A stretch of 64,000 nt of DNA from NCBI GenBank assembly GCA_021527695.1, contig JAKFAO010000004.1, positions 847,001 to 911,000 on the forward strand. Direction: 5' to 3'. Under the pieces are notes generated by a model. That model did not search any database and was not told the origin of the DNA. It saw only the letters and a list, made by a program, of their open reading frames with translations. Below, piece after piece: positions 47,738 through 53,088 of this stretch. The position numbers and the translations under genes were made by a program. Numbering within the stretch: the first letter of the stretch is position 1; every line of letters starts with the position of its first letter. The DNA is from Naematelia aurantialba. Its lineage: Eukaryota; Basidiomycota; Tremellomycetes; Tremellales; Naemateliaceae.

Positions 47738-49734
47738 CTAAGCCCTTAGAAGCCGATACACGTCGGCGACGAGATACAAGCTACCGCAAACCACGACCAC
47801 CCCTGGCCCCTGCTCGTCCCAGTCCTGGACGGCCCACTTCAACGCGCCCTGCAGGGCTGATACGCCCTGCCCGTCGCCCACGTATATATCTGACGATTCG
47901 GCGGTGATCGCTCGGACCACAGTATACACAGCTTGCTTTGGCACCGGTGCGACCCACGGCATGCCCTCTACCGGCGTCGTAAACTCGATAACGGCCACGC
48001 GATCCCCTGGTCGAACGAGCGGCGCAAGCACGCTCTCCACCGTCTTGTCTTTCGAAGACGAAAGCGAGACGATGAATGTGTGGGGCTGCCGGGCAGGTAT
48101 CTGAAGCTCGTCGATGTATGCGCGCAGTGTCCGTGAGGAATCGCCATTGTGAGCCCCATCAACGAGAAGGGGATACCTGTGTTGAGACCAGGAAGGAGCC
48201 CATTCGACCCATGAGCACCTCCCTTCCCATCGAGTCGCTGCGATACCCTTGCGAAGCGCATCGTTCGTGATGTCCGACAATTTCGGCTGTATAGCCAGGG
48301 CCCGGCGATCCTGTCGAAGTACGTGGAGGATCGTGAGTGCCAGCGACAAGTTGTCGAGCTGGTGCTTTCCAGGCAGAGACAGTACGCTCTCGAATGCCAC
48401 AGGCGGAGACGAGAGCGCACTTCCTTTGGTATACGATGGCAGAGGTGTTCGGACTGTTCTCGATGGCTGTCCCGAAAACGGCACCAAAGATATCCGGCCG
48501 GACTCTGCCAGAACGGTCGACGGTGCAGCGAGGACCATCGTGGCACCCTTGCTCGCGGCGACTCGGCTGGCCGTCACCTTGACTTCTGGATATGCTTGCG
48601 GTCCTACGAACAACAAACCGTCCTTGACTGCTATCTGCGTCTTCTCCTCTGTGATGGCTGCCAGTGTAGTACCGAGGAAAGCAGTGTGATCGAGACCGAC
48701 GGCGCAGAGGGCTGTAGCCAGGACCAAATCTGGCGGTAGCACATTTGTAGCGTCGCGTGCGCCTCCCATACCACATTCGATGATCATGACATCCGCCACA
48801 GAGGCATTCATCATACTCAAAGCAGCTGCAGTGGCCAGCTCGAAAGTAGTTGGTTCGATCTTAGAGGCTGCTGCCAGTCTGAGCGTGTCCTCCATATGCC
48901 TTTGGTAGTCGGCGAGAGCTGGAGGCTTGCCGTTAATTCTGATTGCGTCGCGCGGTTCGACAAGATGTGGTGAATTGTAGCGCGCGACTCGAAGCCCCGC
49001 TGCCATCAAACACGATTCAAGCATCGCCGAGACGGATCCTTTACCGTTGGTGCCCGCAATGTGAATTGCCGGTACTGTAAGACGAGGCAACTTCGCCATC
49101 AACGCCCGCATTCGTCCTAGGCCAAGATCGATCCTGCCAGCGGCTACCGTCAATGATGATGATTGTGAGGCCTGCGATCGACCTGATACCACATCCGAAG
49201 AAGAAGAAGATGCCGCGGAGCCAAAATGGGACGCAATAGAGCTTTCGTAGGGAGGCGGAGGTGTCAGCCACGGTGAAGAGACCATTTGCTGTGGAAGTGG
49301 TTGATGCCTGAGATGAGGGGCCGTGGGCATAGGATAGGCTTGAGGCGTTTGGCGATAGCAGGCAGCGGATGAGGTGATGGTTGGGGCAGGTCGCATAGGA
49401 TACGTCGGATGTTCGTACGGCTGATGCTGGCGATTATAATACTGATTCTGCGAGTCAACCAGCACAACTCGATTGTCTATATGCAGTGGCCGAGTAGGTG
49501 GTCTGCACAATGCTTCCACCGACAGCCGACCTTGAGGATGAGGTGTAAATTGCGGAGGAATAGCCTCAATGTGCGCATATAGTGAACTGGCAGGGTGAAC
49601 AGGAGGCACTTGTTGCCGTGGAGGTGGTATACGGACTGGGTAGAGTACCGGCTGCTGGAGATGGGGGGCTGACGGGTGCTGCGTCGGTTCGACCGGCGTG
49701 TCGGCCTGCTTGCGCGAGTGCGTGTAGTGTTTCG
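47738..49734 (-). CDS. FOL3: Dihydrofolate synthase moiety (FOL3-like), last exon of the fused frame
   Basis: Dihydrofolate synthase couples dihydropteroate to glutamate with ATP, a step of de novo folate synthesis. The catalytic part starts RIDLGLGRMRALMAKLPRLT and VPAIHIAGTNGKGSVSAMLE (P-loop). RVARYNSPHLVEPRDAIRIN, FELATAAALSMM and IIECGMGGARDATNVL (the DHFS/FPGS signature) follow. Then come ALCAVGLDHTAFLGTTLAAI, EEKTQIAV, LPGKHQLDNLSLAL, RYPLLVDGAHNGDSSRTL, and the end VVVCGSLYLVADVYRLLRA. The domain is complete and intact. If this is a separate gene, starts could be in-frame Met codons upstream, for example MVSSPWLTPPPPYE near 49286. An unseen first exon joining at the CAG just before IDLGLGRM is also possible, since many homologues start close to IDLG. 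The 5' boundary is therefore open. Confidence 0.85.
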
Positions 49735-52700: not shown

Positions 52701-53088
52701 CTGGATTGCGTCAGTAGCTCTCCTTGCTTGACGATCGTCGGTCTTACAAGCTAGCGGGCTGCAGGAAGACTATCTCCTCCGGCTCCTGAGGCTGCTGGGC
52801 CAATTGGGGCTTTTCGTCAGAAGGAACCGTTCTCTGAGTTAGGGTAATCTCCGCATCCGAGAAGGTCTTGGGCTTTCGAGGTCGAGCAGATTTCCGGACG
52901 GGTGAGCCGGAAACTTCGCTCGACGAAGGACCAGCCGCGATAGACGGGGCATCTGCGAGTTGTGCCGCGCTTTTGGAGGAGGGGGAAGAGGCCACTGCGT
53001 CTATGGCACTAGTAGACGGCAGTGGAGTCATAGCGACAGGGCCATGTCGAGCAGGAGAAGAGATTGGGAGAACACCGACGGCGAACAT
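47738..53088 (-). CDS. KDM4-type JmjN/JmjC/PHD protein fused in frame to dihydrofolate synthase
   Basis: ATG 53088 begins MFAVGVLPISSPARHGPVAM and a basic PVRKSARPRKPKTFSDAE. JmjN follows: GIPIFMPTMEEF, GIVKIIPPKEW, RSPIQQNMLGTGGLFRQTNV. After a charged linker come GVNVPYLYWGMWRAAFAWHV and EDMDLFSINYIHFGAPKFWY (JmjC, first His and Glu). RGYHAGFNLGFNCAESVNFA has Leu where the second metal His is expected. An extended PHD module (YPCILCPSTAEDD, HSACVNAI, CASCEDKA, GKCPKAFHVSCAK, LLCTQHNP) precedes AHFLLDWSRIDFRPTVTKVP and GYENEYSKHYTHSRKQAD. The frame then continues without a stop through about 190 residues rich in Pro/Gln/His/Tyr into the dihydrofolate synthase domain. KDM4 proteins demethylate H3K9/K36; the missing His questions activity here. 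Two overlapping genes remain possible. Confidence 0.75.
49735..49779 (-). other. 45-nt intron at the KDM4/dihydrofolate synthase junction, stop-bearing if retained
   Basis: The donor GTAAGC follows GYENEY, the acceptor is GCGTAG, and a CTGAC branch-like motif lies about 10 nt before the acceptor. Spliced, the frame continues SKHYTHSRKQAD into the dihydrofolate synthase ORF. Retained, it reads CKLDVGLTFTF and stops at TGA 49747-49745, giving a stand-alone KDM4 protein. Confidence 0.7.

Follow-up and report, generated by a model that had tools for sequence, protein, structure and literature searches.

A predicted in-frame fusion of a KDM4-type histone demethylase with dihydrofolate synthase in Naematelia aurantialba and related fungi

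Conclusions

We describe a gene of Naematelia aurantialba, here called KDM4-DHFS, in which the reading frame of a KDM4-type histone demethylase runs into that of dihydrofolate synthase (DHFS). Comparison with related sequences indicates that the fusion is real, old and conserved in Tremellales and Trichosporonales, and KDM4-DHFS is very probably a fused gene translated into a full-length chain. Both halves belong to known families, and the fusion was not found described in the literature that we searched. A folate-synthesis enzyme, apparently present as the sole copy in its genome, probably shares a gene product with a histone demethylase across two fungal orders. The arrangement makes the question of folate-chromatin coupling testable by simple genetics, through separation of the domains, and shows a possible route by which a housekeeping enzyme loses its own start codon and comes to depend on another gene.

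Background

DHFS ligates glutamate to dihydropteroate at the expense of ATP. Proposed links between folate metabolism and histone methylation are SAM, formaldehyde and the folate enzymes of the nucleus. Naematelia and Cryptococcus are members of the Tremellales, an order that also holds Kwoniella and Kockovaella, while Vanrija, Cutaneotrichosporon and Cryptotrichosporon belong to the Trichosporonales, Naganishia to the Filobasidiales, and Phaffia and Mrakia to the Cystofilobasidiales. The titles and abstracts listed in our literature searches, a scope outside which most subscription papers and preprints fall, contained no description of a fusion of DHFS with either KDM4 or a histone deacetylase (HDAC). 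The one paper found to name both "dihydrofolate synthase" and "JmjC" concerns a malaria parasite, and a term search of the main text of a paper on fungal gene fusions (PMC2557144) returned none of demethylase, jumonji, folate or folyl.

Structure of the KDM4-DHFS gene

The window analysed is a 64,000-nt stretch of the N. aurantialba genome. Within it, KDM4-DHFS lies on the minus strand from 53088 to 47738 and has, in our spliced model, 12 exons holding 1612 codons and a stop (start ATG at 53088, stop codon at 47740-47738; Table 1). Ten of its 11 introns (43-52 nt) are inside the KDM4 part. The predicted product of 1612 aa carries, in order, JmjN, JmjC, PHD-like fingers, a linker and a complete DHFS. 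Splicing of intron 11 takes out an in-frame TGA and leaves GYENEY followed directly by SKHYTHSRK of the last exon (49734-47738), which is open through the linker to the end of DHFS. The start, end, GYENEY motif and phase-compatible splice proposed in the initial annotation all agree with the spliced model. The linker is open ahead of DHFS as had been claimed, but its length is 201 codons rather than about 190, and the DHFS domain that follows is, as predicted, complete (464 residues, with TIGR01499 above its cut-off). Retention of intron 11, which would stop the protein after 958 aa, may give rise to a minor isoform. Upstream, at 54598-56116 on the same strand, Helicase_C and DEAD/ResIII matches occur in open frames that are probably exons of one helicase.

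Table 1. Positions in the window of the KDM4-DHFS gene, its domains and other features
Feature	Position	Strand	Basis
Whole fused gene	47738..53088	-	Spliced model; Pfam; same architecture in relatives
JmjN, aa 155-188, split by intron 52546-52495	52426..52579	-	Pfam PF02375, 45.1 bits
JmjC, aa 465-581, His-x-Glu...His motifs, two internal introns	51108..51551	-	Pfam PF02373, 134.1 bits
PHD-like zinc fingers, aa 735-820	50253..50600	-	Pfam PF13771 + PF13832
Intron 11, phase 1, 45 nt, GTAAGC / CTGAC branch-like motif / TAG	49735..49779	-	Spliced model
Linker, 201 codons, aa 948-1148, predicted disordered	49133..49734	-	Open frame; pLDDT
Linker block RLSVEALCRPPTRPLHIDNRVVLVDSQ, nearly identical in N. 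encephala, short predicted helix	49448..49528	-	
Possible alternative intron GTATCA...GGCAG, giving free DHFS from MWIDLGLGR; judged unlikely	49134..49189	-	
DHFS domain, 464 aa, aa 1149-1612	47741..49132	-	TIGR01499; FolC structures by sequence and fold

The two halves and their families

In the N-terminal half, JmjN is followed by JmjC, with PF02375 and PF02373 both over their cut-offs, and the iron ligands H-x-E...H are present, since WHVED and YPRGYHAGFN align to WHLED and YPYGYHAGFN of Rph1. Both iron motifs of JmjC occur in 28 of the 30 fused relatives among the matches listed; of the two exceptions, one begins downstream of the first motif and the other is a read-through frame. With Rph1 and the KDM4 (JMJD2) proteins the window protein has in common JmjN and JmjC, conserved iron-binding motifs and PHD-like fingers, and its top match of known structure is yeast Rph1 (3opt, E 4.3e-95). 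Judged by these family motifs, the half is a putative Fe(II)/2-oxoglutarate histone lysine demethylase of the Rph1/KDM4 type. The KDM4 proteins of Phaffia (P0198), Mrakia (P0202) and Naganishia cerealis (P0253) are unfused and carry no DHFS, whereas the KDM4 of the window does. Against the fusion, an environmental KDM4 frame, P0199, ends without DHFS.

The DHFS domain scored 238.1 bits against the folC profile TIGR01499 (cut-off 162.65) and stayed just under the cut-off of Pfam PF08245 (22.6 vs 24). AlphaFold2 predicted a confident FolC fold, for which Foldseek returned 2vor with an E value of 1.3e-28 and FolC/FPGS structures as all of the top 17 matches. Both the profile and the Mur-ligase-type fold are those of the FolC/Fol3 family. 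The P-loop GTNGKGS and the DGAHN region are present in the window DHFS, and the corresponding alignment columns, G227-S233 and D525-N529, are invariant or nearly so. The exact strings GTNGKGSV and DGAHN were found together in 26 of the 30 fused relatives among the matches listed, and the source annotation of the relatives' domain is dihydrofolate synthase or folylpolyglutamate synthase. The full 464-aa domain, a putative DHFS, is common to the window protein and the FolC/Fol3 family. The difference lies at its N-terminal edge: 12 of 13 free-standing basidiomycete homologues start, as counted by eye, no more than 2 residues from the I-D-L-S-L core, whereas the window DHFS stands C-terminal to KDM4 and is without a start codon at the core position.

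A protein search of the N. aurantialba genome gave the KDM4-DHFS locus itself, one FolC-family gene on C13 (31% identity; TIGR01499 193.2 bits), which is presumably FPGS, and a weak match on C1 (E 0.24). No second DHFS was found in the genome with this protein query; the only other strong match being FPGS-like, the fused frame is the only DHFS found. The published NX-20 assembly of N. aurantialba is given as 93.1% complete by BUSCO (PMC8777972), so that a missed DHFS copy is possible. As a copy-number probe PF08245 was rejected because it missed even the known KDM4-DHFS locus, and the protein query was used for this reason. Pterin-binding (FolP-type) and DHFR genes are present in the genome.

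Conservation of the fusion among relatives

The DHFS part was used as the query for relatives, among which long proteins of 0.55-1.75 times 1612 aa were considered. JmjC (PF02373) and DHFS (PF27239) were combined in at least 30 of the 73 long DHFS-bearing matches listed, namely in 26 named species or strains of Tremellales and Trichosporonales and in four environmental proteins (P0011, P0012, P0020 and P0032). Fused proteins among the matches listed came from Naematelia, Vanrija, Cryptotrichosporon, Kwoniella, Cutaneotrichosporon, Kockovaella, Tremellales sp. Uapishka_1 and Cryptococcus (amylolentus, sp. DSM 104548 and sp. DSM 104549), and the best match to the window product was that of N. 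encephala. The search of related Tremellomycetes for JmjC joined to DHFS, which had been suggested as a check, thus found the architecture in 26 named cases among the matches listed. The initial annotation's principal claim, an in-frame fusion of a KDM4-type protein with DHFS, is borne out by these 30 or more proteins of the same architecture and by environmental frames that run over the join; a single frame covers both domains and is conserved among relatives.

Gene models at NCBI may merge neighbouring genes. The environmental frames argue against mere merging of this kind, since their N termini and apparent read-through introns suggest that they are translations of unspliced DNA. The first residues of P0011 (1470 aa) and P0012 (1530 aa) lie 5 and 16 positions ahead of the intron 2 site and resemble the translated 3' end of an intron; both frames then pass intron positions 3-11 to the end of DHFS without intron-like insertions, so that most of the gene seems to be one exon in these lineages. 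Where intron 4 would fall, P0032 has HVED-VSVS, the reading expected of a GTGAGT donor left unspliced. Among 110 environmental proteins examined, 12 have the KDM4-body motif ENEY and, after it, the DHFS P-loop. In P0029, P0078 and P0099, ENEY-GE or ENEY-GK is followed by extra residues and no stop, and these three seem to retain an intron (GTGAG or GTAAG) at the place and in the phase of intron 11, a site that is probably conserved among relatives. A longer part upstream of DHFS was present in 43 of 120 DHFS-bearing proteins, with a KDM4 or linker BLAST match (E 1e-6) in only seven of the 43, a stricter count that favours the fusion less. The model P0009 of Cutaneotrichosporon sp. HIS471 (2572 aa) adds to KDM4-DHFS the domains PF00172 and PF04082, which we take to be fungal transcription-factor domains and which probably come from a merged neighbour.

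The same frames bear on the alternative that two neighbouring genes lie here, their transcripts overlapping or meeting end to end. DHFS would then be expressed from its own promoter with the help of an internal ATG or of a 56-nt intron, and KDM4 would end by retention of intron 11 (at 958 aa) or elsewhere. In-frame ATGs are indeed available at 49396, 49330 and 49285, and a GT-AG intron at 49189-49134 with a branch-like CATTGAC would create a start like that of unfused relatives; spliced in a long mRNA, this intron would end the KDM4 frame after 1159 aa. Its donor, GTATCA, is weak. The residues before the DHFS core are mostly G-x-G-K-I-D-L-G-L in the clade of fused and split proteins, where 40 of 42 rows carry Gly at -2 and 38 of 42 a basic residue (Lys or Arg) at -1 (P0030, which has no P-loop, was dropped from the count), and the A-G-R that precedes I-D-L-G-L in the window, at a position that is mostly G-x-G-K/R in the clade, would be altered by the intron. 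Counted by eye, a Met lies within the 14 residues before the I-D-L-G-L core in two of the 42 clade rows and in none of the other 40. We judged an independent DHFS start by way of the 56-nt intron unlikely because the residues that it removes or replaces are conserved. Two adjacent genes are also hard to reconcile with P0011 and P0012, which have no sign of a stop or intron from JmjC to DHFS, and with P0029, P0078 and P0099, in which the intron 11 site is open though seemingly unspliced. The annotation of separate proteins in some species speaks for adjacent genes, an arrangement that we nevertheless consider very unlikely in the window.

Species with separate proteins

The species in question are those of the C. 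neoformans/gattii group, C. depauperatus and T. mesenterica, in all of which two proteins are annotated. In the C. neoformans/deuterogattii group these are a KDM4 of 1279 or 1269 aa (P0194/P0195) and a DHFS of 529 aa (P0105), and the separate-protein clusters of the C. neoformans/gattii group comprise 36, 57 and 32 member sequences. The pair is P0197 and P0085 in C. depauperatus, and a partial KDM4 (P0196) and P0125 in T. mesenterica. The N-terminal extensions of DHFS in the split species keep linker-like residues (G-L-G-K, G-V-G-K and G-R-G-Q).

A DHFS tree of 59 rows was constructed by a quick method with SH-aLRT support and no bootstrap. Fused rows and three split rows formed one clade of 43 (SH-aLRT 97), in which the split Cryptococcus rows nested among the fused species of that genus (SH-aLRT 96) and T. 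mesenterica was placed near the base on a long branch. Nesting of the split Cryptococcus rows within the fused clade points to secondary fission or to annotation as the source of their separate proteins, and in the split Cryptococcus group and C. depauperatus a fission after the fusion is possible. Close relatives with the two genes apart, which had been named as grounds for doubting the fusion, therefore exist in annotation and in few species, and those of Cryptococcus sit inside the fused clade.

A fused gene remains the preferred reading. The fusion would most likely have arisen after the split from Filobasidiales and Cystofilobasidiales, when DHFS, its own start codon lost, became attached to the tail of KDM4.

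The linker

AlphaFold2, run on the last exon, gave a pLDDT below 50 at residues 1-196. Of 20,000 simulated linkers of the same make-up (Markov-1), 215 had no stop in the given frame. When a synonymous-codon score was trained on the remainder of the gene, the true frame of the linker scored 0.019 versus 0.037 and 0.013 in the other forward frames; codon usage did not pick out the true frame and was set aside as uninformative about coding. Evidence from the window alone that the linker is coding is moderate and not overwhelming, and we therefore relied on comparison with relatives. The earlier argument that a random frame of this length would rarely remain open thus carries moderate weight for the window by itself and holds once the relatives, with their conserved architecture, frames across the join and linker identity, are added.

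Between the window gene and N. encephala, 117 of 199 aligned linker residues are identical (59%), alongside identities of 96% in JmjC and 78% in DHFS. The two linkers differ little in the block RLSVEALCRPPTRP.HIDNRVV.VDSQ, whose retention suggests selection on the linker. Loose patterns of the two halves of the block, written as regular expressions, found only 13 of 47 proteins each, and this, like the very short linker annotated in P0007, speaks against the fusion. Split Cryptococcus species have the first half of the block (e.g. RPLRMDEMLNPSP) on the KDM4 side.

We consider it likely, from these comparisons, that the product is a single bifunctional chain. It would be translated as one chain and presumably retain both enzyme activities, with the two enzymes held on a flexible disordered tail of about 200 residues. 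One fused mRNA might instead yield separate products through cleavage of the linker or internal initiation, which is compatible with a fused gene and would mean that the fusion only couples expression. The linker is predicted to be disordered and contains ATGs, so a shorter DHFS form may start internally at 49396, 49330 or 49285, and the separate proteins annotated in the pathogenic Cryptococcus clade suggest that such a state is viable. The selection suggested by the block kept in N. encephala is an argument for an intact chain, one that is weakened by the related blocks on the KDM4 side in split species, and no cleavage site was identified in the linker. On balance we regard separate products as rather unlikely, if well worth considering, and a single chain as the better account. 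Such a chain would bring DHFS to where KDM4 acts and tie the dose of each enzyme to that of the other; DHFS would then be nuclear, and a chromatin eraser would be co-regulated with folate supply.

Folate, formaldehyde and a second chromatin eraser

The initial annotation had proposed a metabolic rationale, that the formaldehyde released by JmjC demethylation reacts with THF; chromatin-bound DHFS would feed the THF that traps it. This idea is compatible with a fused gene but speculative, and we give it little credence. The product of DHFS is dihydrofolate, and a reductase would still be needed to reach THF. LSD1, a flavin-dependent amine oxidase to which THF binds without a covalent bond, likewise associates a histone demethylase with folate; it is not known to have a folate-synthesis domain, whereas the window gene product carries DHFS. 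In favour of formaldehyde capture are statements in a review (PMC11375787) that THF reacts with formaldehyde by condensation, that folate is a ligand of LSD1 (an LSD1-folate reference is also found in PMC8080763), and that yeast Rph1 is phosphorylated on PP2A activation after methionine deprivation, preserving SAM. The link of Rph1 to methionine and SAM status might equally supply an alternative, speculative rationale for the fusion.

A second chromatin eraser joined to DHFS, found in Naganishia, also lends something to the capture idea. Proteins P0034-P0036 of this genus combine a histone deacetylase domain with DHFS, and the nearest solved deacetylase to P0036 is HOS3 (7wjl). As in the window gene, DHFS is C-terminal to a chromatin eraser; the partner differs, the DHFS rows form a sister clade to the KDM4-DHFS clade in the DHFS tree, and the proteins lie outside the window. 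Environmental P0163 and P0167 are frames that pass from a deacetylase tail into DHFS with the catalytic domain outside the frames, and are 35% and 42% identical to P0036 over 217 and 186 residues. Another environmental protein, P0151, was grouped with the HOS3-type deacetylase-DHFS proteins. Sister to the Naganishia rows is environmental P0033, in which DHFS stands behind a different N-terminal part with weak zinc-finger matches (MYND 10.5 bits and zf-HIT 13.3 bits, both below cut-off). To our knowledge HDACs release no formaldehyde, so the Naganishia fusion does not share the capture chemistry, and this counts against formaldehyde as the common reason.

A broader reading is that chromatin erasers acquired DHFS on two or more occasions, KDM4 in Tremellales and Trichosporonales and a HOS3-type deacetylase in Filobasidiales, the advantage being folate made on chromatin, whether for one-carbon supply, for formaldehyde control or for tying methyl removal to folate status. 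We think this unlikely, although less so than formaldehyde capture by itself; if true, it would be a direct, genetically hard-wired link from folate synthesis to histone modification. DHFS is often fused or mis-merged, and only two of its partners are erasers, so a chance pairing with erasers is possible.

Other annotated DHFS fusions

Further partners of DHFS or FolC occur among proteins P0040-P0070. They are, as we take them, valyl-tRNA synthetase in Taphrina, Savitreella and an environmental protein, topoisomerase I in the chytrids Synchytrium and Batrachochytrium, photolyase-type domains in Sorochytrium, and a SET domain in Symbiodinium. Some of these annotated fusions may be merged gene models. 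In Rhizophlyctis, within the same range of proteins, the partner is PF10307.
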